Positions 30,604-43,491 of a stretch of DNA of 64,000 nucleotides are shown piece by piece. Source of the stretch: Herpetosiphon aurantiacus DSM 785 (GTDB lineage Bacteria; Chloroflexota; Chloroflexia; Chloroflexales; Herpetosiphonaceae); NCBI GenBank assembly GCA_000018565.1, contig CP000875.1:3797199-3861198 (forward strand). The letters run 5' to 3'. How positions within the stretch are numbered: position 1 is the first letter of the stretch; the number at the start of each line of letters is the position of its first letter. The notes below the pieces were generated by a model. That model was not told the DNA's origin. It saw only the letters and a program-made list of their open reading frames with translations, and searched no databases. Position numbers and translations under genes: made by a program.

Positions 30604-30636
30604 AACCAGCACGGTTTTAACTGTGCTGGTTTTGTT
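30604..30636 (+). terminator. Intrinsic terminator after the YebC-family gene
   Basis: AACCAGCAC (30604-30612) pairs with GTGCTGGTT (30623-30631), with an inner GTT/AAC pairing, followed by TTGTTT. Confidence 0.85.
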
Positions 30637-30910: not shown

Positions 30911-31747
30911 ATGACCGATTTTGAGTTCTGGCAAAAAGTTAAGGAAATGGGTCAGATCACATATGACTGGTGGTATCCTACGATTGCGCTTCCGGCTTTA
31001 ATTTGGGCAGTTTCGGTTCTCTTCTTGGCAATCTTTGCCGCACGAAAAATTAAAAAAGTCCATAATCGCTTTTTGACCCTCTTTCTATCAACTATTCCCG
31101 TGTTGTTGATCTTTCCATCGGCCTATATCGCCCAAGCCCTTGGCAGTGCACTCAATCGGGTTGGTTATACCTTGCCGGAGAACGTCAACGATTTCGCCAG
31201 CAACGATGCACTGGTATTGGGAAATTATCTGAATGCCTTTGGCTTATGGGGCGTGTTAGGCATCACCTTTACCTTACCGTTGATCTTAAGCAGCCTCTCG
31301 CGTAGCGAAGTGCCAGTGATCAGCCCAGCTATTCGCAATGCCACCAAAACCATCACCAATATTGCTACCCGCGCTTTTGGCCGACGTGGCGGGGCTGGCG
31401 GTGGCGGACGGATTAATGCACCCTATGGCTCGATCACAATCAACAATGGCTCGCGTAAAGGCTCAATCGAAGCCTTACGCCCCGATTTTACAATTGGCGG
31501 CAAGGGTGATATTCAAGTTAGCGATGTGATTGTTTCGCGGACCCATGCCAAATTTGTGTTGGAAGATAATCAAATTGCTGTGATTGACCTTGGGAGCACC
31601 AACGGCACCTTCTTGGTACGTGATGGTCAAGGCTTTATGCTCGATAGTCAGCCGGTGCCACTTGAACATGGCGATACGATCTATCTCGGCGACCCCAACC
31701 AAGATAATGCAGTAGAAATGGTATTTGAGTTTAATACAGGAGCATAA
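30911..31747 (+). CDS. Membrane protein with C-terminal FHA domain
   Basis: A 278-residue protein. Three hydrophobic segments (~20-43, ~52-77, ~105-127) are followed by a Gly-rich hinge (RRGGAGGGGR) and an FHA domain (~185-272). The FHA signatures are IGGKGDIQVSD, VSRTHAKF and DLGSTNGTFL, with the Arg, Ser/His and Asn that bind phosphothreonine retained. First gene of the block, so probably a membrane-tethered reader of proteins phosphorylated by the neighbouring kinases. A clear GAGGAG precedes ATG 30911. The next gene starts 4 bp after the stop. Confidence 0.9.
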   Translation: MTDFEFWQKVKEMGQITYDWWYPTIALPALIWAVSVLFLAIFAARKIKKVHNRFLTLFLSTIPVLLIFPSAYIAQALGSALNRVGYTLPENVNDFASNDALVLGNYLNAFGLWGVLGITFTLPLILSSLSRSEVPVISPAIRNATKTITNIATRAFGRRGGAGGGGRINAPYGSITINNGSRKGSIEALRPDFTIGGKGDIQVSDVIVSRTHAKFVLEDNQIAVIDLGSTNGTFLVRDGQGFMLDSQPVPLEHGDTIYLGDPNQDNAVEMVFEFNTGA

Positions 31748-31751
31748 CCTC

Positions 31752-32942
31752 ATGAAAACGTGGATTTTGCGTTGTAGCCTTGCGTTGCTGCTGCTCTCGC
31801 CAGTTTTGACGTATGCTCAAGCAGCCTATGAAGTTAAACTCACCGATGCCCAATTACTGCAAGATCGGGTGGTCAACTTCAAGATGCGGGTCACAAATAC
31901 GACGACTGGCCAAGATGTGCCACCGCTGGAACCTGGCGATATTGCAATTTATCAAGATGGTCAATTGCTGACTGATTCTCAATTGGTAATGCATGTAATG
32001 ACCACAGATGCAACCAACTCAGTCAGCCATACTATTCCCTTTGATAGCCAAAGTGTCTTACGCGCCTCGGGGGCAACGATTGGCTTGGTAACGGATTTAA
32101 GTGTCGCACTCGGTGATCCATTTATCGGCGAAGTCCGTACTGCTGCCGAAAGCTGGATCAACCTTGGTAACGCGGTTTCGCCCAATGACCCCGAATCAAT
32201 TGGCTTGTTTATCCCTCGCTCATCGAATAGCCAATCAACGCGTCCCGCCAATGCCCCCGAATTTGATCGCGACCACAACAGAATTATTGGGGTTTTGCGC
32301 ACTGAGCCACCACGCGATGGCGCAACTAATTTGTATGGGGCGATCTTAGAGGCCGTTACTGCCACTGCTGCTGAAGCCAAAAAACGCGGTACAGACAGCT
32401 ATGTGGTGGTATTTGGCGATGGCTCTGTTACACCCGATAGCGCTGGCTTGTTCAGCCAAATCGTCGATCTTGCCAATAAAAACAATACGATTATTATCGC
32501 AGTAGGCATTGGCAAGACCGAAAATTTGGATAAAGCCACCAATCAACTGCCCAATTTAGCCAGCAGTACCAACGGACGCTATGTTGCAGGGAACTCAGAA
32601 GAACGGCCAGGCAATATGGATCAAGCCTATAAAGCCTTGGTCAAACCAGTTAACCGTACTGGCTACGACTTGGCATTCGTCCATACCGCACCCCGCGACG
32701 ATAAACAACACACCTTCCAAGTTAAGGTGACGATTGCAGGCCAAACGTGGGAAAGCTCAACCTTACCAATACCAATTGGTGGGCTAGCCACCGAGTCTGA
32801 GTTCACCCCATTGAGCCAATTGCAAAAATTTTATCTACTGCGTGGTGTGCCCGCCGCAATTATTTTGGCAGCAGTCACAACCGCTTTAGCAACCGCCACC
32901 CGCCGTCGCCCAACTCGGATTGATCCAGGGGCTGGTAAGTAG
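31752..32942 (+). CDS. Exported VWA-like protein with C-terminal membrane anchor
   Basis: A 396-residue protein. I start it at ATG 31752 behind CAGGAG; residues 1-22 are a signal peptide ending TYAQA. A short beta-domain precedes a von Willebrand A-like region (~95-310) with GLVTDLSVALG at the metal-site position and DSYVVVFGDGSVTPD. The canonical DxSxS reads DLSVA, so metal binding may be weakened. A membrane segment at ~368-388 precedes a basic tail, giving an outside VWA domain. Its place between the FHA and kinase genes suggests an extracellular adhesion or sensing partner. Confidence 0.8.
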   Translation: MKTWILRCSLALLLLSPVLTYAQAAYEVKLTDAQLLQDRVVNFKMRVTNTTTGQDVPPLEPGDIAIYQDGQLLTDSQLVMHVMTTDATNSVSHTIPFDSQSVLRASGATIGLVTDLSVALGDPFIGEVRTAAESWINLGNAVSPNDPESIGLFIPRSSNSQSTRPANAPEFDRDHNRIIGVLRTEPPRDGATNLYGAILEAVTATAAEAKKRGTDSYVVVFGDGSVTPDSAGLFSQIVDLANKNNTIIIAVGIGKTENLDKATNQLPNLASSTNGRYVAGNSEERPGNMDQAYKALVKPVNRTGYDLAFVHTAPRDDKQHTFQVKVTIAGQTWESSTLPIPIGGLATESEFTPLSQLQKFYLLRGVPAAIILAAVTTALATATRRRPTRIDPGAGK

Positions 32943-32960
32943 GCTATCGGAGGAGCGACT

Positions 32961-34346
32961 ATGCATCTTGTTGCAGGTCAACAATATGGGCGCTACGAAA
33001 TTGTTGATGATCGTTTGGCCGAAGGGCTTTCCGGCCCGGTCTACCATGCGATCATCAATCACGATGATGGGCATCGTGAAGAAGTTGCGCTCAAATTTCT
33101 GACGAATAAACTTCCTCAAGTTCGTCAGTATTTTATGAATGAGGAACGTTTGCTGAAAAAAGCCGAGCACCCTCATGTGATCGGCTTTGTCCACAGTAAT
33201 GTCCGTGACGAGCCGTATACGCTGGCCACGACGTTCGTTTATGCCTACAGCAATAAAGAGTTATCGAAGCAAAAAAGCGAAACTATCGCGCTGCAAATCG
33301 CCGAACAAATTGGCAGTGCTTTGGATTATCTGCATATTGCCCACCCTGATAGCCCAGTTATTCATCGTGACGTAAAGCCCGATAACATTTTGGTCGATAA
33401 AGCCACGCACGATGCGATTCTGATTGACCTCAGTGTTGCTTCGCACGAACGCTTTGCCTTGGTCGATGAACGTGGTTTTGGTACGCCGCCGTATATGGCT
33501 CCTGAGCAATATACGGGGCATGAAGTGCCAGCAACCGACCAATATGCCTTGGCCTTGGTCGTCTATTATTTCCTGACAGGCGATACAATCCCCACGATCA
33601 AACCACCTAAAATCAAGGGGATGGAATCGAATGATCCTCAAGTATATCAAGCAGCTTTGGCGATTTGGAATACTGAATTTCGCCAGCAACTGGCGGCTCA
33701 AAACGAGCGGATTCGCAAAAACTTGGCCAAACATCCCACGGCCATCGAGGTTTTCTTAAAAGCGACTGCCTTTGAGCCACACGATCGTTATAGCTCATGT
33801 GCAGCCTTCAGCATGGCGATGCACGAAGCCTTACGCAATGATGGAGCCGCCTTTGCAGCCCCAAGCATGCCCATCAGCAACTCACGGCGCTCAACCATGA
33901 TCAGTATTGGGGCCATTGGTGCTCTGGTTTTAATTGCAGTGCTCTTTTTAGTCTTGGGTGGTGGCGATACGCCTGATGTCAATGGTAAAGCAACGCCAGA
34001 ACAAGCAGCGATGCAACCAACCTCAACCTTACCCGAAACCCCGACTACTGGTGGTATTCCAACGGTCACAATCGAAGCGGGTATTCCAACCTCAACCTTA
34101 CCACCAATAGTTTCACCAACTACTGGAGGCCGCGAGGTAACCCTGAGTCAAGGCTACATTTTGCGGGCACAACCTGGCGATGGTAGCGCGAATGCCCTTG
34201 GCAGTGGGCAAGCTCTCGAAGGCCAAAAGTTTCGGGTGCTTGATGAGAACCCCAGCACCATCAGTGGTGATCGACGCAAATGGTTCAATGTACAACGTAT
34301 CAACGGTGGAGAAACAGGATGGCTACCAGAAACAGTCTTACGCTAG
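32961..34346 (+). CDS. Membrane Ser/Thr protein kinase with extracellular SH3-like domain
   Basis: A 461-residue kinase. The domain (~10-290) has Lys in VALKFL, HRDVKPDNIL and the activation-segment TPPYMAPEQY. The DFG motif reads DLS (ILIDLSVAS); the Mg-binding Asp is kept. The glycine loop is loose (LAEGLSGPVYHA). A membrane segment (~312-334) is followed by a Pro/Thr stalk and a C-terminal SH3b-like domain (~388-461), VTLSQGYILRAQPGDG ... RKWFNVQRINGGETGWLP, which could bind cell-wall or glycan ligands. It starts behind GGAGGAG. The PP2C gene follows 19 bp later. Confidence 0.9.
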   Translation: MHLVAGQQYGRYEIVDDRLAEGLSGPVYHAIINHDDGHREEVALKFLTNKLPQVRQYFMNEERLLKKAEHPHVIGFVHSNVRDEPYTLATTFVYAYSNKELSKQKSETIALQIAEQIGSALDYLHIAHPDSPVIHRDVKPDNILVDKATHDAILIDLSVASHERFALVDERGFGTPPYMAPEQYTGHEVPATDQYALALVVYYFLTGDTIPTIKPPKIKGMESNDPQVYQAALAIWNTEFRQQLAAQNERIRKNLAKHPTAIEVFLKATAFEPHDRYSSCAAFSMAMHEALRNDGAAFAAPSMPISNSRRSTMISIGAIGALVLIAVLFLVLGGGDTPDVNGKATPEQAAMQPTSTLPETPTTGGIPTVTIEAGIPTSTLPPIVSPTTGGREVTLSQGYILRAQPGDGSANALGSGQALEGQKFRVLDENPSTISGDRRKWFNVQRINGGETGWLPETVLR

Positions 34347-34365
34347 GCCACCAAGGAGCATTGCA

Positions 34366-35949
34366 ATGAGTCAAGCTGCCAATCTGCCTAACCTCGTGGT
34401 CTATGGGCAAAGCGATGTTGGGCGACAACGGAATAATAACGAAGATAATTTGGCATGGCGACATGCCGATGAACGTAGTGTTGGCACAAAATTGGTCAAC
34501 GGGGTAACCGAACTTTTCGCCAAAATTCGCGGCGGCGGGGCAACCGGGTTTAGTGTCAAAATCGACCATAAATTGCTGGCCAGCCACGGGCGGCTCTATG
34601 TCGTTGCCGATGGGGTCGGCGGTAATGATGATGGCGAGTTGGCCAGCCGCGCTGTTGTCGAATATACGACCAAGTTTTTCTATAATAGCGATCCCAAAAA
34701 CTATAAAAGCAAACAAGATCAACTGAATGCGGCAATTCAATATGCCACCAAAATGGTCTATAAAGAGGCCGGCAATACCAATCGCGCCTCAACCTTGGTG
34801 TTAGCTTTGGTCTGGGATGAAGGCACATTCCGCAAGATTATTTTCTCGAATGTTGGCGATAGCAAAGGCTATTTGTTCCGCGCCAATAATACCGAATATG
34901 ATCGCGCCGTCCAAACCAAAGATCATGTCAACGCCATGAACAAAAGCCTCTGGCAATCGATGGGCGACCCCGAGGTAACGCCTCACTTCAGCGATGAGCT
35001 AGTTTTGGGCAAAGATGATGTGATTGTACTCTGCTCAGACGGGCTTTCTGATGGGGTGCAGGCCGAGGAAATTGGCAAAATTGCCACCCGCAATGCCCCA
35101 CAAAATGCGACAACTGAGTTAATTAGCCTTGCTAATGAGCGCGGCGGCCACGATAATATCACCAATGTGGTGGTACGCAACGGCCCTGCGCCCATTCAAT
35201 GGGGAGCCTTAGGCGGGATTCTCGGCGTTGTGCTGTTGGTTGCTGCTCTTTTAGGCGGGATTGTCTTCATCGGCGGCGATGATGTTAACCGGACACAGGG
35301 TGGTCGCAACGCGATCATGATTCCAACCCGACCAATCATCACCATGGTCGATGGTTCGTTTGCCACGGTTACTTTACCTGCTGAAACGGCAACAGCCGAA
35401 GCCGAATTGATTCGGCAAGCAACCGAAAACCCAGTGCCAACCGATACTCTTGGGCCACAGGCAACCAGTGTGCCAGGCACAAACCCAACAGCACGGCCAG
35501 CCGCCACGGCAACCAACCGCCCAGCGGCCAATAATCCAACGCCAATTCCAGCAACCAACCCGCCAGCTGTTCAGCCAACCAATCCACCAGTGGTCATTCA
35601 ACCAACCAATCCACCAGCCCCAGGCGATCGCGATGGCGATGGTGTAACTGATGACGTTGATCCATGTCCCGATGTGGCTGGACCAAACAATGGCTGTCCA
35701 GCGCCAGTTGAGCCAACCGCACCCCCAGCAGTTGTTGATACCGATGGCGATACGATTCCCGATAATGTTGATGATTGTCCAAATGAGCCTGGTGATCCGT
35801 CGCGGAATGGTTGTCCCAAGCCAGTTGAGCAGGCTACTAATACACCAAAACCGCCAACCGATACGCCACGGCCAACCGATACGCCTCAGCCAACGGCTGT
35901 GCCAACGTCACCAATTAATCCAAATGATCCACCAACACCACGTCCGTAA
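34366..35949 (+). CDS. Membrane PP2C phosphatase with extracellular TSP3 calcium repeats
   Basis: A 527-residue protein starting at ATG 34366 behind AAGGAG; the longer frame overlaps the kinase gene and is not used. The PP2C domain (~5-270) has metal-binding NNNEDN, VVADGVGG, CSDGLSDG and GGHDNITNV, with an extra ~45-residue loop after NEDN. A membrane segment (~279-304) is followed by a long Pro/Thr/Asn stalk. Two thrombospondin type-3-like repeats (~420-495) begin DRDGDGVTDDVDPCP and [15 protein letters not shown]. They would sit outside the cell and bind Ca. The same two-repeat tail occurs on the kinase at 40088. It should reverse the phosphorylation made by the block's kinases. Confidence 0.9.
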   Translation: MSQAANLPNLVVYGQSDVGRQRNNNEDNLAWRHADERSVGTKLVNGVTELFAKIRGGGATGFSVKIDHKLLASHGRLYVVADGVGGNDDGELASRAVVEYTTKFFYNSDPKNYKSKQDQLNAAIQYATKMVYKEAGNTNRASTLVLALVWDEGTFRKIIFSNVGDSKGYLFRANNTEYDRAVQTKDHVNAMNKSLWQSMGDPEVTPHFSDELVLGKDDVIVLCSDGLSDGVQAEEIGKIATRNAPQNATTELISLANERGGHDNITNVVVRNGPAPIQWGALGGILGVVLLVAALLGGIVFIGGDDVNRTQGGRNAIMIPTRPIITMVDGSFATVTLPAETATAEAELIRQATENPVPTDTLGPQATSVPGTNPTARPAATATNRPAANNPTPIPATNPPAVQPTNPPVVIQPTNPPAPGDRDGDGVTDDVDPCPDVAGPNNGCPAPVEPTAPPAVVDTDGDTIPDNVDDCPNEPGDPSRNGCPKPVEQATNTPKPPTDTPRPTDTPQPTAVPTSPINPNDPPTPRP

Positions 35950-35987
35950 AAATAAATAGATAGGTAGATTTACAAGGAGTTGTCTTA

Positions 35988-36959
35988 ATGGCTTTCAAAC
36001 GTTTATTAATCCTGATCATAGTAGCGATCGGCTTTGGGCCAACTGCGAGTTTGGCCCAAACAGCCCCAAACCCACAACCAGAGCTAAAGACGATTCAACC
36101 AGTGGTAGAACAGCCAACCGGAGTCGAGGCACTGCCATTGGTTAAATGGGATGCGATTGACGTGACAGTGGTAGAAGGTCAAGATGTATGGTTGGCGCTC
36201 CGCACTGACACACCAATCGAAACCACCAGTGGAATTAAAATTGATATTCAGCTCTACACCAGCAATGCTTCAAATGGAGCTGATATCAATGACGATTTTG
36301 AGAGCGAAATCACCCTGCCTCAAACCAATCAATCACGCAATAACCAGATAACCGGCTATATCACAGGGACTTCGCAAGTATTGTATATTCAACTGCGCAC
36401 CATTCCTGATACGATCATTGAGCCAAACGAAATCTTCTTTGTTGATGTGATTATCTCGAACGGGACTATTGAGTCACGCGGCAACCGTGCCACCATCACG
36501 ATCGCCAAAGACGAGAAATTCTACCCGGCCTTTGCCAATTGGCAAGGCTGCCAAGATGTCAATGAACCAGCCAATAATACCGCCGCTGGCAGTGGCATCT
36601 TAGCCATCTCGGGTGGCGCATGCACAAGTGATTTTGTTGGCGAAAATGCTGGTACTAGTAGTGCTGTTGACTATTATCGGCTCAGTTCAGCAACCAATGG
36701 AAACCTAAGTTTACGCCTAAAAAATACGACACCTGACCAACATAATTTCAATCTTTATCTATACAAATACAACCCAAGCACCACCCGCTATGATCTGGTT
36801 GCTCAATCAACCAATGATAATCAAGTGGATGATCTGATCAATCTTGCGATTGTAGCCAATACAAGTAACGACAACGGGCTGTATCTGGCTGCCGCCTATT
36901 GGGCTACTTCAACTGGCGATAAAACTCCAACCTATGAATTAACTGCAACAATGCAGTAG
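35988..36959 (+). CDS. Secreted Calx-beta + PPC-domain protein, paralog 1
   Basis: A 323-residue protein with a signal peptide (1-24, ending ASLAQ) and ATG behind AAGGAG. Residues ~45-165 form a Calx-beta-like domain (VEGQDVWLALRTD, EPNEIFFVDVIIS). Residues ~180-322 form a pre-peptidase C-terminal-like sandwich (CQDVNEPANNT, VDYYRLSS, TTPDQHNFNLYLY). Two Cys (GCQDV and GGACTS) may be disulfide-bonded. First of four paralogs that sit between the phosphatase and the downstream kinases. It has a fuller acidic N-terminus than the others. It is probably a soluble extracellular or surface-bound partner; the ligand is unknown. Confidence 0.82.
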   Translation: MAFKRLLILIIVAIGFGPTASLAQTAPNPQPELKTIQPVVEQPTGVEALPLVKWDAIDVTVVEGQDVWLALRTDTPIETTSGIKIDIQLYTSNASNGADINDDFESEITLPQTNQSRNNQITGYITGTSQVLYIQLRTIPDTIIEPNEIFFVDVIISNGTIESRGNRATITIAKDEKFYPAFANWQGCQDVNEPANNTAAGSGILAISGGACTSDFVGENAGTSSAVDYYRLSSATNGNLSLRLKNTTPDQHNFNLYLYKYNPSTTRYDLVAQSTNDNQVDDLINLAIVANTSNDNGLYLAAAYWATSTGDKTPTYELTATMQ

Positions 36960-36960
36960 G

Positions 36961-37050
36961 TTTAATGCCCTAAGCCCAAGCCCCTCGCCTGCCCAGCAGA
37001 CGAGGGGCAATCCCAATCTGCTACGACAATGAGCAAGGGCAGGGGTGAGC
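36961..37050. repeat. REP-like GC-rich repeat inside the block
   Basis: A diverged copy of the REP-like family ('cccaagcccctcgcc ... gacgaggggc ... gcaggggtgag') lies between Calx-beta paralogs 1 and 2. Confidence 0.6.
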
Positions 37051-37102
37051 GGCTAAAGCAGCTAGTTTTACCAACCATCAATGGCAGGGAGGATCATCAG
37101 GT

Positions 37103-37957
37103 ATGCGCAGGCTCACTCAATTTGCTCTTTTTCTTGGATTAATTTGTTTGTTTTCTACTGCTAGTTATGCTAACCCCAATGTGCCTACTGCCGCAACCCT
37201 CGCTTGGAGTAGCACCTTTGCTTCAACTGCCGAGGGCATTGATGTGTGGCTGCGGATTAATGTGGTCGGGGCCGCACCAACCGATAATGTCAACCTGTCA
37301 TTTATTTATCAAACTTTTGGGCAAACAGCACAAGCCTCTCATGACTATGAACAAACCGCTTGGCCAAATGGCACAAAAGGGACAATTACGGGCAATAAGC
37401 GGGTTGCTTATATCAAAATCAACATCAAAAGGAATGATTACTTTGAGCCAACCGAGACCTTCCAAGTTGAATTACGCTCAGATGCAGCCAACACTGTTAT
37501 TACTGGGCCAGCCCGAGTAATGGTGACGATAAGCCGAGCACGGCTGATGAATCCAATCGCTGGTATTCTGGAATCATGTTTGAATGGCGGCGAACCCAAT
37601 AATGATTTTCCCGTATCGGCAGGCCAAATTGCCATAAATGGCGGTTGGTGCAACACTACCTTTGATAAGGAAACGGTTAATGCCTTTGATTACTATCATT
37701 TGGTGCAATCGACCGCTGGGAGTATAACCATTCGGCTTGAAAACACCACCCCTGATCAACACGACATTGATCTTTATCTTTTCTATCGTGATGGTCAGGG
37801 CGATTACCAGAACTACCGCCAATCAATTAATGGCAATCAACAAGCTGAATATATTGAGGCTCCGCTTGCCGCCTATACCAATTATCTGATTGGCGTGCAT
37901 TGGGTCAGCGGTAGTGGCAGTAAAATTCCAACCTATCGCCTTAGCGTTTCTCGTTAA
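37103..37957 (+). CDS. Secreted Calx-beta + PPC-domain protein, paralog 2
   Basis: A 284-residue protein with a signal peptide (1-23, ending ASYA). The Calx-beta-like domain (~30-150) has STAEGIDVWLRINVVG and EPTETFQVELRSDAAN. The PPC-like domain (~160-282) has ESCLNGGEPNNDF, INGGWCNTTF and TTPDQHDIDLYLFYRDG. It is very close to paralog 3 in protein and DNA, so a recent tandem duplication. ATG 37103 follows GGGAGGATC. Same likely extracellular role as its neighbours. Confidence 0.83.
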   Translation: MRRLTQFALFLGLICLFSTASYANPNVPTAATLAWSSTFASTAEGIDVWLRINVVGAAPTDNVNLSFIYQTFGQTAQASHDYEQTAWPNGTKGTITGNKRVAYIKINIKRNDYFEPTETFQVELRSDAANTVITGPARVMVTISRARLMNPIAGILESCLNGGEPNNDFPVSAGQIAINGGWCNTTFDKETVNAFDYYHLVQSTAGSITIRLENTTPDQHDIDLYLFYRDGQGDYQNYRQSINGNQQAEYIEAPLAAYTNYLIGVHWVSGSGSKIPTYRLSVSR

Positions 37958-38100
37958 GCTCATTTGGCATTGGCAGCTCAGTTGTGGCCTAGTCATTGAG
38001 CGGCTCACATCAGCATAATTCAGATTGGGTTAGGCAGTTATCCAATCAACCAATACCACCCTGATCGACGTTTTCTTTCTATATAGGAGTATCAGTACTT

Positions 38101-38958
38101 ATGAAATTTGCGCGAATACTCATTCTACTGTTATTAATCCATGGTATTTTGCCACAAGCAAGCTTTGCCAACCCCGATGCACCAACCGCTGCAACGCTCG
38201 CATGGAGCAGTGCCTATGCTTCAACCGCTGAGGGCATTGATGTGTGGCTGCGAATTAATGTGGTTGGGGCGGCCCCAACCGATGATGTCAATCTTAAATT
38301 TATCTACCAAACATTTCAGCAAACAGCAGAATATAATCACGACTATGAACCAACCAATTGGCCAAGTGGCACCAAAGGGGCAATTGTTGGCAATAATCGG
38401 GTAGCCTATATCAAAATTCACATCAAAAAGAATGATTACCCAGAGCCAACTGAGACCTTTCAAGTTGAATTACGCTCAGATGCAGCAAACACCGTCATCT
38501 CTGGGCCAGCCCGAGTAACCGTCACAATTCGCCGCTCACGGCTGATGAATCCAATCGCTGGGATTATGGAATCATGTGTGAATGGCGGCGAACCCAATAA
38601 TGACTTTCCCGCATCAGCGGGCCAAATTGCGGTGAATGGCGGTTGGTGTAACACCAGCTTTGAAACAGAAGCTGTTCGTGATGTCGATTATTATCATGTG
38701 GAACAATCGACGGCTGGGAATATCACAATTCGGCTTGAAAACACCACCCCTGATCAACATGACCTTAACATTTATCTATATTACCGTGATGTGCAAGAGG
38801 GCTACAAATTATATTTACAATCTACCAATCCCGGTCAGCAGGCCGAGGTGATTAGTAATGCCCCGATTGCGGCGAATACCAACTATTTGATTGCCGTGTA
38901 TTGGGCTAGTGATACTGGCGATAAAATACCCACCTATCGCTTAAGTGTCTCACGCTAA
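38101..38958 (+). CDS. Secreted Calx-beta + PPC-domain protein, paralog 3
   Basis: A 285-residue protein with a signal peptide (1-23, ending ASFA), then a Calx-beta-like and a PPC-like domain that match paralog 2 in order and length (EGIDVWLRINVVGAAPTDD, EPTETFQVELRSDAAN, ESCVNGGEPNNDF, TTPDQHDLNIYLYYRD). Both conserved Cys are present. ATG follows TAGGAG. A 15-bp hairpin follows the stop. Confidence 0.83.
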   Translation: MKFARILILLLLIHGILPQASFANPDAPTAATLAWSSAYASTAEGIDVWLRINVVGAAPTDDVNLKFIYQTFQQTAEYNHDYEPTNWPSGTKGAIVGNNRVAYIKIHIKKNDYPEPTETFQVELRSDAANTVISGPARVTVTIRRSRLMNPIAGIMESCVNGGEPNNDFPASAGQIAVNGGWCNTSFETEAVRDVDYYHVEQSTAGNITIRLENTTPDQHDLNIYLYYRDVQEGYKLYLQSTNPGQQAEVISNAPIAANTNYLIAVYWASDTGDKIPTYRLSVSR

Positions 38959-38972
38959 TGGCGGTTGTTCAG

Positions 38973-39012
38973 GCTAAGCACAACCCTTGAAAACACCAGG
39001 GTTGTGCTTAGC
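38973..39012 (+). terminator. Strong hairpin between Calx-beta paralogs 3 and 4
   Basis: GCTAAGCACAACCCT (38973-38987) pairs perfectly with 38998-39012 around a 10-nt loop. There is no T-run, so it may be a weak terminator, a 3' stabiliser or a processing site that sets relative expression within the block. Confidence 0.65.
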
Positions 39013-39066
39013 TTCCATCATAACCCATACTCATACGTCGATTCTAGCAACAAGGATTTTTAGGTT

Positions 39067-39930
39067 ATGCACTACAAACGTTGGTCATTGTTCCTCTTAA
39101 TTCTGCTTAGTTGCGTAGCGTTCCCAAGCGCTCAGGCCGAAGAGGCAAGCCCGCAAGCAGTAACGGTATCGTGGGAACGCACGAATGTTCAAACCACCGA
39201 AGGCATAAATGTTTGGCTTAAAGTCGTCGTCAATGGCGCACTCAGCGACGAAAGCCTCAGCCTCAATCTACGCTACCAAACCTTTAACGGGACAGCAATT
39301 GCTGGGACTGATTACTCACCAACCACAGGGACTGGCAATGCCTTCACAATCACCGGATTACGTCGCTATGCCTTGATTAATATCGGGATTTTGCAAAACG
39401 CAGTGGCCGAACCCTACGAAACCTTCCAAGTAGAGTTGCGCTCGGAAAATGCGAATGTTGCCGTAGCTGGCCCAGCGCGGGTCACGATTGGAATCAATCG
39501 TAGCCGCTTGTTTAGCCCTGTCGTCGGGCAGCTTCAACCATGCATTAATGTTGGTGAGCCAGCCAATAACGCCTCAACGACCGCCGGATTCATCGCGCTG
39601 GCTGGGGGCTGGTGTCAAGGCGACTTTATTGGCGAGGTTCCGAGTAATTTCGATTACTATCAATTTAAGCTTGCGGTTGGGGGTAAAGTAACGATTCAGC
39701 TCGAAAATATCACCCCTGATCAACACGATTTTAACTTGTATTTATACTATCGTGATGGCAACGGCCAGTTTCAACCCTATGTTCAATCAGGCAATCCTGG
39801 CCAAAGCGCTGAATTATTGAGCAATATTCCGATTGCCGCCAACACCACCTATCTGATCAATATTATTTGGGCGGCCAAAACTGGCGACAAAACCCCAATT
39901 TATCGGTTTAGCGCCCAATACCAACCTTAA
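39067..39930 (+). CDS. Secreted Calx-beta + PPC-domain protein, paralog 4
   Basis: A 287-residue, more diverged paralog. Signal peptide 1-24 (ending SAQA). The Calx-beta-like domain has TEGINVWLKVVVNG, GTAIAGTDYSPTTG and EPYETFQVELRSENAN. The PPC-like domain has QPCINVGEPANNAS, LAGGWCQGDF and ITPDQHDFNLYLYYRDG. The GTDY and ETFQ motifs are the best visible match to a genuine Calx-beta fold. Last of the four secreted genes before the kinase pair. Confidence 0.83.
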   Translation: MHYKRWSLFLLILLSCVAFPSAQAEEASPQAVTVSWERTNVQTTEGINVWLKVVVNGALSDESLSLNLRYQTFNGTAIAGTDYSPTTGTGNAFTITGLRRYALINIGILQNAVAEPYETFQVELRSENANVAVAGPARVTIGINRSRLFSPVVGQLQPCINVGEPANNASTTAGFIALAGGWCQGDFIGEVPSNFDYYQFKLAVGGKVTIQLENITPDQHDFNLYLYYRDGNGQFQPYVQSGNPGQSAELLSNIPIAANTTYLINIIWAAKTGDKTPIYRFSAQYQP

Positions 39931-39972
39931 TCATCAGCAGGTAGCCATCGCTCAGATCGTTCTAGCTGCCGC

Positions 39973-40001
39973 TTGTCAAGGCTGACGAATGGTGTGATAA
40001 T
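39973..40001 (+). promoter_or_regulatory. Promoter of the downstream kinase pair
   Basis: TTGTCA (39973-39978), a 17-nt spacer and GATAAT (39996-40001) preceded by TGT (extended -10). It lies 86 bp before the kinase start, giving the last two kinases a transcript of their own. Confidence 0.7.
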
Positions 40002-40087
40002 GGGGCAGCAACGAAGTTGTCGAAAAATATTAATCTTTGGTACTGAAGAGAGCGGTCTTCCCGCTGTTTTCGTTGTAGGATGCTGCT

Positions 40088-42295
40088 ATGGAGTCGTTTG
40101 AACATACACAGTTGGGCGAGTATAGCTTGCAGGATGAAATAGGCCGCGGCGGGATGGCACTCGTCTATCGGGCGCATCACCCCGATTATGGCTCGGTAGC
40201 ATTTAAAGTGCTACCCCCCTATTTTGCCCACGATACCGACACGCTCCGACGATTCATGCTCGAGGCACGGGCAATTCGTGAACTGCACCACCCACATATT
40301 GTGCAGCTCTACGAAGCCAGTGATATTCCTGACCCAAATAATAGTCGTCAACGCATCCATTACATTGCAATGGAGTTTATTGGCGGTGGCACACTCAGCG
40401 AACGCTTACATACGCAACCACGCCAACAACTCAATCCAACGATTGAGATGGGCTTGCATATTGGTTCGGCCCTCGATTACGCTCACCGCAAGCAGTTTAT
40501 TCACCGCGATATTAAGCCAAGCAATATTCTGTATCGCCACGATGGTCATGCAGTTTTGGCCGACTTTGGGATTGCCCGGGTCAGCAATGAAGCCCGTATG
40601 ACCAAAACTGGTGGTTTTGCTGGGACGGTAGCCTACACCGCGCCCGAAATTGCTGAAGGCCAAATTGCCGATGCCCGCTCCGATATTTATGCCTTAGGCT
40701 TGATTCTCTATGAAGCCTTGGCAGGCAAAAACCCATATGCCAACATGCATGCCAATATTGCTGTTGCATTAAGCAAAATTATTAGCACACCTCTGCCGCC
40801 ATTACGCGAATTGGCTCCGCATGTGCCACCACTGACCGCCCAAATTATCGAGCGGGCAACCGCCAAAGACCCGGAACGACGCTTTGAGAATATGTCTGAT
40901 TTTGTTGAAGCCCTCAAACAGGCAAAGTTTGGGCGATCAGCAACCAAACCTGATGTGCAGTTGAATGCCCATGGCAAACCCATGATTCCAATTGCCCGAC
41001 CAAGTGGCAGTCGGACTGAACGTAGTTCTGAAGGCGATTCAACCCGCACCCAGGTGTTTAACCCAGTGGTTGGGGCTGCCAGCGCCGCTAATGTTGCAAT
41101 CTCAAAGCCAAACCAAGGTTTGGCCGGCCCAGCAAGTGGCGCAAACATGGCCTTGCCTGTTGAAGGAAGCCAAATTTATACGCCACCAGCAGGCAGTGGC
41201 CCTAACAGCCGCATCAATCAGCCCTTGAGTGGCGTAAATCAACCCTTACCAATGGGAGCCAACTCACAGGCCAATGTGGCGTTACCCAACGACGGGACCC
41301 AAATCTATACCCCTGAGCCAGTTGGCGCACTCAGTGGAACCAATATGGCACTCACTGGCGAGAGCACGCAAATGTATGCACCAGTGTCAGGAGTAAACCA
41401 ACCCTTATCAGGGGTGAATCAACCACTCACTGGCCAAAATCCAGTGCGTGGGCCAAGTTCACGGCCTAATCGCACCGTCAATGCACGGCCCATTGAGGTT
41501 GCCCGGCCTGGCACGGCGGTCAATCAAAATCTTGGCCCTAGCTCACAACCAAATCTCGGTTTTGACGGCGGCTCAGGCACATTTGCGGTTAATCGGCCAA
41601 ATAACAATAAAAAGAAGGCCTTGATCGCAGGCATCGGCGGCGGTATTCTCGGCCTGATATTAATTGGCGTGTATATGCTATCAAGCAGCAACACTGTCAA
41701 TCCCAACGATACCAATGGTACGACAAACGCCGTGCAATTTACCACCGATGGCAGTGCTACAGCCACCAGTGCAAGCACCAGCAATGGCAATGGCACACCT
41801 GTTGGTACTCAGCCAGCGGTTGTGGTTGATCCAGGTGTTGCAACCAGTACCTTGGCTCCAACACCTGAAAATAGCCCAACGCCTGAACCAACCGATACAC
41901 CTGTAGCCACGGCAACCTCCAATGCAGTTGTTGTAGCAACGACGCGTCCGCAAGCAACGAATCGCCCACGCCCAACTAATACGCCAAGCCAGCAACAAGC
42001 ATCTCCTGTCCCACCAACCAATACACCACCACCAGCCGATAGTGATGGCGATGGCGTGCCCGATGAAGTTGATGGCTGTCCTGGTGTGGCTGGGCCAAAT
42101 AATGGTTGTCCAATACCAACCGAAGTTCCACAGCCAACACCAATCCCTGACTCGGACGGTGATACAATTCCCGATAACGTCGATAATTGTCCCAATGAGC
42201 CTGGTGATCCAGCTCGGGGCGGGTGTCCAAAACCACCAGCAACCAATACACCACGGCCAACCGAAAAACCAACACCACCGCCGATTAATCCATAA
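40088..42295 (+). CDS. Ser/Thr kinase with FHA-ligand-like repeats, membrane segment and TSP3 calcium repeats
   Basis: A 735-residue kinase. The domain (~10-278) is canonical: [31 protein letters not shown] and TAPEIAEG. A long cytoplasmic linker (~283-510) contains four copies of a short motif, TRTQVFNP (~319), EGSQIYTP (~359), DGTQIYTP (~402) and ESTQMYAP (~425), and several SGVNQPL repeats. A membrane segment lies at ~511-533. Outside are a Ser/Thr/Pro stalk and two TSP3-like repeats ([15 protein letters not shown] and [15 protein letters not shown]), homologous to those on the PP2C phosphatase. ATG follows 'gtaggatgctgct'. Confidence 0.92.
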
Positions 42296-42384
42296 TGTTG
42301 TCGGACGATCAGGAGCAAAAGAGCGCACCCACCAGTGCGCTCTGTCTATGATCACAAGCTATGTTTAGCATTAGGTGGCCCTCT

Positions 42385-43491
42385 ATGCAAAACTTAAGTA
42401 ATCTTCAACTTGGGGAGTATCATCTAGCTGAGCAGATCGGCCAAGGCGGTATGGCGGTTGTCTATAAGGCTGAACATCCACAGTTTGGCACAACCGCATT
42501 TAAAGTCTTGCCTTCAATGCTGATCCATGTCGGCGAATTGTTAACCCGTTTTCTCAACGAGGCTGACGCTGTGCGGATTTTACATCACCCGCATATTGTC
42601 CAATCGTATGAGACCGGAGCAGTGCCCCATCCCCAACTAGACGAGGAGGTCTATTTTATTGCGCTCGAATACATCGAGAATGGTTCGTTATTGGAGCGCA
42701 TGATCGCTAGCTCGCTCGCCGTCGAAGATGTGATCAAAATGGGCATCGATATTGGCTATGCCTTGGAATATGCTCATAGCAAGGGGATTATTCACCGCGA
42801 TATCAAGCCCAGCAATATCTTATTTCGCAACAATGGTCAAGCCGTTTTAGCCGATTTTGGCATCGCCAGCACGGCCCAATATATTCGGCTCACCAAAACC
42901 GGCAATGTCACTGGCACAATCGCCTACATGGCCCCAGAAATTATGCAAGAAGTGCCAGCCTCGCCACGCTCGGACCTCTACTCGCTGGCCTTGGTGCTCT
43001 ATGAAACCTTGACCAATTCACGGCCTTTTGGCACCGATACAGCCTCACCACAGTTGGTGCAAAAAATCTTGCAAGAGCGAATTCCGCCACTGCAAGATGT
43101 TATACCGGATATTTCACCAACAATCGCCCACGTCATCGAACAAGCCTTGGCCAAACAGCCAAGCCAGCGCCAAACATCGGTTGGTGAATTTGTCAGCCAA
43201 TTGCAACATGCGCTGCAACGCCGTACCCCCAGCCAATTTACCATCCCATTGCCTGAGCCATCCGAGGATCTATTGGTCGATCAGTTTACCAAGCCCCAAC
43301 AACGTAAGCCCAAGGCTAAACCGATCGAGGTCAATCGACCAAATGCGGCTGCTTCATCAACGCTTGGCATTCAAGCCAGCAATGATCTCGCCAGCTCGCC
43401 ACGGGCAAAATTTACGACAACCCTCCAGTTTGTGTTAATCGCAGTTGTGACCTTCTTTTTAGTCCTAGGTATTTTTTTCATTTTTCAATAA
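42385..43491 (+). CDS. Tail-anchored Ser/Thr protein kinase
   Basis: A 368-residue kinase starting at ATG 42385 (MQNLSNLQLGEYHL) behind AGGTGG; the ATG 24 bp earlier has no ribosome site. The kinase domain (~10-275) is canonical ([35 protein letters not shown]). A ~60-residue basic linker leads to a C-terminal membrane segment (LQFVLIAVVTFFLVLGIFFIF) that ends the protein, so there is no outside domain. It is closely related to the preceding kinase and appears to be a duplicate without sensor tail. It may serve as an amplifier or a constitutive partner. Confidence 0.9.
   Translation: MQNLSNLQLGEYHLAEQIGQGGMAVVYKAEHPQFGTTAFKVLPSMLIHVGELLTRFLNEADAVRILHHPHIVQSYETGAVPHPQLDEEVYFIALEYIENGSLLERMIASSLAVEDVIKMGIDIGYALEYAHSKGIIHRDIKPSNILFRNNGQAVLADFGIASTAQYIRLTKTGNVTGTIAYMAPEIMQEVPASPRSDLYSLALVLYETLTNSRPFGTDTASPQLVQKILQERIPPLQDVIPDISPTIAHVIEQALAKQPSQRQTSVGEFVSQLQHALQRRTPSQFTIPLPEPSEDLLVDQFTKPQQRKPKAKPIEVNRPNAAASSTLGIQASNDLASSPRAKFTTTLQFVLIAVVTFFLVLGIFFIFQ

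Follow-up and report, generated by a model that had tools for sequence, protein, structure and literature searches.

An FHA-VWA-kinase-PP2C core in Herpetosiphon aurantiacus is probably a type VII secretion phospho-control module separated from its ATPase

Results

The window analysed here is a stretch of 64,000 nucleotides of Herpetosiphon aurantiacus DSM 785 (contig CP000875.1, positions 3,797,199 to 3,861,198), part of a 6,346,587-bp contig in a genome totalling 6,785,430 bp. Between positions 30911 and 43491 it carries a cluster of FHA, VWA, kinase, phosphatase and secreted-protein genes, whose conservation and likely origin are the subject of this report. An earlier reading of the letters alone (the original prediction) had described ten co-oriented open reading frames (ORFs) on the plus strand; all ten are present, and their domains are backed by Pfam. 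The first gene (30911..31747) encodes an FHA protein with three transmembrane (TM) helices followed by a cytosolic FHA domain at residues 199-260, as judged by Pfam, motif alignment and hydropathy, and the second (31752..32942) encodes a VWA protein in which Pfam, an AlphaFold model, fold matches and hydropathy revealed a signal peptide, a beta domain, the VWA domain, beta strands and a C-terminal TM helix. The Ser/Thr kinase PK1 (32961..34346; Pfam, motifs, hydropathy) has one TM helix, an ectodomain of about 130 amino acids (aa) and intact active-site motifs, with DLS/DFS for DFG. The PP2C phosphatase (34366..35949; Pfam, motifs, hydropathy, Stp1 family at 7e-33) has one TM helix and an ectodomain with TSP3-like calcium-binding repeats. 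The likelier starts of the VWA and PP2C genes are 31752 and 34366; a PP2C start at 34180 was dropped because the longer ORF overlaps PK1.

Four secreted paralogs follow. S2 (37103..37957), S3 (38101..38958) and S4 (39067..39930) are Calx-beta and PPC proteins with weak to moderate Pfam matches to both domains, assigned in S2 and S3 also by paralog identity and in S4 also by an AlphaFold model and fold matches; S1 (35988..36959) gave no Pfam match and was classed as a divergent Calx-beta/PPC-type paralog by its 32-38% identity to S2-S4. The cluster ends with two further Ser/Thr kinases identified by Pfam and hydropathy, namely PK2 (40088..42295), with a TM helix at residues 512-530 and a TSP3 ectodomain, and PK3 (42361..43491), a cytosolic kinase with a C-terminal tail-anchor helix at residues 357-375 of 376. 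The Pfam E-values were 4e-13 for FHA, 3e-7 for VWA_3, 6e-9 for PP2C and 2e-25, 2e-42 and 2e-45 for the three Pkinase domains. The gaps from the FHA gene through to S1 measure 4, 18, 19 and 38 bp, and the later gaps 65-157 bp. A terminator-like hairpin of 12 pairs (30604..30631, plus strand), called as a consensus match only, lies between yebC and the cluster, and the genes downstream of the cluster have the opposite orientation.

TM helices and signal peptides were called by hydropathy; the S2 signal peptide fell under the threshold and was judged by eye. PK1, PP2C and PK2 each have one TM helix and a tail outside the cell, and S1-S4 are secreted; the predicted reach of the kinases and phosphatase to the outside was therefore borne out for these three, but not for the tail-anchored PK3. 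The VWA protein is exported as predicted, on the strength of its signal peptide and C-terminal TM helix, and by hydropathy and AlphaFold that helix also tethers it to the membrane. Its model (mean predicted local distance difference test, pLDDT, 85) shows the VWA domain flanked by beta elements and matches the folds of the integrin-beta headpiece, TRAP and anthrax-receptor VWA domains. The S4 model (pLDDT 80) comprises a Calx-beta domain and a PPC-like domain, with folds that match the calcium-binding domain (CBD) of Calx/NCX and the collagenase PPC type. Across relatives, PK1 keeps the lysine and the APE motif as well as HRD, which reads HCD in a few, while DLS/DFS stands for DFG, and the PP2C metal ligands are all conserved in the alignment; because these are kept, reversible phosphorylation by the cluster enzymes is plausible. 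In the phosphothreonine site of the FHA domain, SRxH and NG are likewise conserved. The TSP3-type ectodomains of PP2C (35400-35949) and PK2 (41700-42295) are homologous (51% identity), which suggests that phosphatase and kinase may watch the same outside signal.

The VWA protein was searched against 150 genomes of the class, and the neighbourhoods of the matches were mapped gene by gene; all counts of co-occurrence refer to this sample of species. The protein is present in all six Herpetosiphon genomes and across the order Chloroflexales. The full gene order of the cluster is the same in 6/6 Herpetosiphon genomes, and the core order FHA-VWA-PK1-PP2C recurs, at 26-46% identity, in nearly every relative outside the genus, among them Chloroflexus islandicus, Roseiflexus sp., Oscillochloris, Candidatus Chloroploca and Candidatus Viridilinea. 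The loci of two genomes (G010 and G046) showed no FHA gene, and in a third (G139) none adjoins the block. A gene for a secreted protein stands right after PP2C in other families too, with other domains: PPC in G010, a weak PPC match in G098, and DUF11 in Chloroploca and G070. Because the order is kept in all six genomes of the genus and the core is kept in loci across the order, this is more than a chance neighbourhood; the ten genes form a real unit, and FHA-VWA-PK1-PP2C is, on comparative grounds, an old four-gene block. The original prediction had proposed a search of Chloroflexota for the order running from FHA to Calx-beta: the whole order was recovered within the genus and the core across the order. 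It had also made the reading of one transmembrane phospho-signalling unit depend on secreted and kinase/phosphatase genes being neighbours in relatives, as they are in all six Herpetosiphon genomes; the genus-wide gene order and the fusion of secreted domains to the phosphatase in the sister genus (see below) support that reading.

Weak VWA matches were also seen outside the order. Acidobacterial VWA matches (L095, L096) were set aside, having no EssC, FHA, kinase or PP2C relatives adjoining, as were Calx-beta matches elsewhere in the class (e.g. G133 C142), most of which are long repeat proteins with no relation to the module. A different cluster in G139 (contig C23, L046:4292-14207) encodes a double-FHA protein, a long VWA protein, a histidine-kinase-like protein, kinases and PP2C, and contains no EssC. 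The full EssC-FHA-VWA-PK1-PP2C set was found in a record titled uncultured Arenicella (L090); it groups with Chloroflexus in the tree and is probably a misbinned Chloroflexota contig.

The original prediction had overlooked the type VII secretion system (T7SS): across Chloroflexales, the core lies beside EssC/WXG100 genes. An EssC/EccC ATPase adjoins the block in 14 of the 16 non-Herpetosiphon loci (in one of the 14 via the joining of two contigs), and in a fifteenth, that of G010, EspG-like and WXG100-effector genes lie beside the block up to the contig edge. Most relatives encode, just upstream of the FHA gene, a protein of 1,380-1,555 aa, often together with one of 92-94 aa; the former are FtsK/SpoIIIE ATPases with three ATPase stretches (FtsK_SpoIIIE x3, Pfam) and the latter are WXG100 proteins (2.5e-19 for L044_03, 4e-11 for L034_00, and also on contig C79 of the sister genus, G028). 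The NCBIfam models matched by the sister-genus ATPase were EccCb, with a score over the curated cut-off, and EssC (1e-181). Other neighbours at these loci include effectors that begin with WXG100 and end in a lipase or another tail; EspG (7.7e-5) and YukD (5.7e-5) gave weak, below-cut-off Pfam matches; EspG-like and YukD-like partners are absent from the window. All 21 genomes with a strong VWA match have an EssC-like ATPase, compared with 31 of the remaining 129. EspG-like proteins were noted at L034:5198-5989 and L048:10596-11393, one by a weak Pfam match and the other by a local profile, and in Chloroflexus islandicus (L042:3248-7670) EssC occupies two ORFs, either through a sequencing error or as a real split.

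In the sister genus the FHA gene is split over two contigs, of which C79 carries WXG100, EssC and FHA residues 1-227, and C82 carries the FHA tail, VWA, PK1 and PP2C; the two FHA pieces abut inside the FHA domain, which points to one EssC-linked locus. In a concatenated tree the Herpetosiphon block is sister to this locus with 100% bootstrap, inside the tree of EssC-linked loci. An EssC of the C79 type is missing from the cluster locus in all six Herpetosiphon genomes. Because the tree nests the Herpetosiphon block among ATPase-linked loci, the ATPase appears to have been lost from this locus in the genus, and the simplest history would have the ATPase part lost once, at the root of the genus, and S1-S4, PK2 and PK3 gained. 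Each of the six Herpetosiphon genomes, like several other Chloroflexales, does encode a giant EssC with extra ATPase domains (G000:C1:3307389-3315356; L047, L048); at its locus lie a WXG100 pair, a kinase-like protein in which HFG stands in place of HRD, an EspG-like protein and a VWA-TM-FHA protein. Furthermore, WXG100 domains occur at 17-24 places in each of the six Herpetosiphon genomes, many heading ORFs of 350-450 aa; these ORFs are candidates for a sizeable set of T7SS effectors in a predator.

Domain fusions tie together parts that are separate in the cluster. In two Herpetosiphon genomes (G068 and G030), other T7SS loci encode, next to EssC, a single protein in which an exported VWA domain is joined through a TM helix to an FHA domain in the cytosol. 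A kinase and PP2C come after it, and WXG100 matches adjoin these loci, strong in G068 and weak in G030. The VWA-TM-FHA protein of the giant-EssC locus of H. aurantiacus (L078_02) was recognised by local profiles, and its orthologue L064_03 was confirmed by Pfam. In the sister genus, the PP2C ectodomain contains two TSP3, three Calx-beta (8.7e-31) and one PPC domain, and outside the genus no protein in the 150 genomes matches S4 better than this phosphatase. One fusion thus links VWA with FHA, the other Calx-beta/PPC with PP2C; because the sister-genus PP2C carries Calx-beta and PPC and tops the S4 matches outside the genus, S1-S4 resemble pieces of the phosphatase ectodomain that have become detached.

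The secreted genes also vary within the genus. H. aurantiacus shares 90-99% identity in the enzymes with its closest relatives, G068 and G030, and at most 46% in the S proteins. At the DNA level, identity is 92-93% up to position 35879 and about 89% from 39971, with nothing alignable between, and both genomes break at identical points; the stretch 35880..39970 on the plus strand is accordingly delimited as an exchangeable S cassette, with 89-93% identity on both sides. In G018, G036 and G014, which are more distant, the alignment runs on across the cassette, and S4 shares 80% identity with the H. aurantiacus protein. Between genomes, identity is 74-84% in the ectodomains of PP2C and of PK2, compared with 97-99% for the enzyme domains of the same proteins. 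Taken together, these comparisons indicate that the outer parts were replaced, or diverged very fast, within a fixed inner frame, two courses that six genomes cannot fully separate. H. aurantiacus 114-95T is a wolf-pack predator (PMC3368417), and in such an organism the swapped cassette points to recognition specificity.

Discussion

We consider it likely that the core FHA-VWA-PK1-PP2C is a membrane phospho-control module of the Chloroflexota T7SS that was separated in Herpetosiphon from the EssC ATPase and the WXG100 genes of its locus. Several observations weigh against this interpretation. The window has no EssC or WXG100 gene, and the sole T7SS ATPase of H. aurantiacus is the giant EssC-like protein, of 2958 aa, which lies about 490 kb away with a VWA-FHA and a kinase-like protein of its own; the EssC-linked locus of the sister genus depends on joining two contigs, and in G121 the block lies away from EssC. 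In addition, the GR of the FHA domain is mostly GK, GS or GG, so that K, S or G takes the place of the phosphothreonine-contacting arginine; the metal-ion-dependent adhesion site (MIDAS) motif of the VWA domain is incomplete in the alignment of relatives. As to mechanism, the exported VWA protein, the calcium-binding PP2C and PK2 ectodomains and the secreted S proteins may sense contact or an extracellular ligand; sensing would shift the balance of the kinases PK1, PK2 and PK3 against the phosphatase PP2C, and the membrane FHA protein would then dock phosphothreonine targets and toggle a membrane complex, with targets and output both conjectural.

For that output, two possibilities stand level, each a little short of an even chance, and other roles take up the remainder. 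The cluster could be a free-standing adhesion, matrix or kin/prey recognition receptor, unrelated to secretion since the loss of the ATPase, with the variable S proteins as ligands or co-receptors. The absence of EssC from the locus in six Herpetosiphon genomes, the calcium-binding, adhesive type of the ectodomains, and the divergence or swapping of the S cassette and of the PP2C and PK2 ectodomains around cytosolic domains that remain 97-99% identical all agree with such a role; however, a T7SS part gave rise to the core, and a further T7SS is kept in each of the six genomes. That other system could equally be the target, with the active kinase and phosphatase of the cluster acting on it in trans: the giant-EssC locus has a VWA-TM-FHA protein and a kinase-like protein (L047_16) with HFG instead of HRD, no PF00481 (PP2C) match was found near it, and both loci occur in 6/6 Herpetosiphon genomes, although co-occurrence among six close relatives is uninformative, the loci are 490 kb apart, and a VWA-FHA protein is already present at the giant-EssC locus itself. 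It is a more speculative idea, and on balance an unlikely one, that a T7SS control module freed from its motor became a free-standing trans-membrane phospho-receptor whose exchangeable Calx-beta/PPC ligands set self, kin or prey specificity.

Two further explanations fare much worse. In TerY-associated triads, a VWA protein, a kinase and a PP2C phosphatase occur together and the VWA protein is cytosolic; to our knowledge these triads have no T7SS link. The three domain types are the same as in the cluster, whose secreted genes would then be incidental neighbours, but the Herpetosiphon VWA protein is exported and membrane-tethered, the block travels with EssC/WXG100, and secreted domains are fused to PP2C; we rejected this reading on the VWA location and gene neighbours and regard it as very improbable. 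No more credible is a chance gathering of ordinary kinases, a phosphatase and secreted proteins without joint function. Later genes stand 108-157 bp apart and PK2 is preceded by a promoter-like site (39973-40001), which would allow separate transcription units; however, the order is kept in three other families at 26-46% identity, and there are two independent fusions. Order and fusions led us to reject chance for the four-gene core, and the linkage of PK2 and PK3 rests on conservation within the genus.

Descriptions of the T7SS come almost entirely from Actinomycetota and Bacillota, and control of the system by phosphorylation is still a proposal (PMC11217815), made for the T7SSc of Bacillota by analogy with the type VI secretion system (T6SS) in an account that covers T7SS types of Bacillota and Actinomycetota and leaves Chloroflexi unmentioned (PMC11217815). 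WXG100 proteins have already been noted in Chloroflexi, with the systems not described (PMC3935865, PMC10765036). In the open-access literature searched, we found no description of a Chloroflexota version of the T7SS phospho-control module, and nothing joining Herpetosiphon with type VII secretion or combining WXG100, FHA, VWA and PP2C. A kinase/phosphatase/FHA/VWA set that is conserved in a third phylum, together with membrane-spanning VWA-FHA fusions, makes contact sensing by T7SS directly testable. In the motorless Herpetosiphon form the part for sensing stands apart from the part for export, and the cluster offers a tangible candidate, open to test, for the means by which this predator senses other cells.

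Judged by gene content, the system that appears nearest is the Bacillota T7SSc and not the TerY triads, with which the original prediction had compared the cluster. The T7SSc (TscA-TscG; Garrett, Higginson & Palmer 2024) comprises a kinase (TscD), a cytosolic VWA protein (TscE), a cytosolic phosphatase (TscF) and an EspG-like protein (PMC11217815). Shared with the Chloroflexota loci are WXG100 proteins, an EssC without FHA matches, a TM Ser/Thr kinase with a conserved active site (K/HRD/D/APE in PK1), a VWA protein and a PPM/PP2C phosphatase, all in one gene cluster; ubiquitin-like and EspG-like proteins may be shared as well, to judge by weak, below-cut-off matches. In contrast to the T7SSc, the Chloroflexota VWA protein is exported and tethered, PP2C has a TM helix and a long ectodomain, and there is an additional, separate FHA protein with three TM helices; the Herpetosiphon locus furthermore has no ATPase and has gained secreted Calx-beta/PPC proteins. 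The T7SSb also has a kinase-fold TM protein (EssB/YukC) and FHA domains (in EssC) among its membrane parts (PMC9600267, PMC11217815); EssB, however, is a pseudokinase and the FHA domains lie inside EssC, whereas in the present set the kinase retains intact motifs and FHA is a protein of its own, or VWA-fused in some loci. A functional analogue is the T6SS pathway of P. aeruginosa, in which PpkA, a kinase with an extracellular VWA domain, acts with PppA and Fha1 (PMC3224232). There, too, a TM kinase is coupled to an extracellular VWA domain, PP2C is its antagonist and an FHA target switches a secretion machine, but VWA and kinase are one protein of a proteobacterial T6SS and the Chloroflexota set is linked to T7SS ATPases, so that the resemblance would be a working likeness and not membership. 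Because the module is T7SS-linked, linked T6SS structural genes are unlikely, although no search was aimed at them. Altogether, the Chloroflexota module is a relative of T7SS parts that resembles the T6SS pathway in its working, and the Herpetosiphon cluster, not itself a T7SS, is a derived form without the motor.

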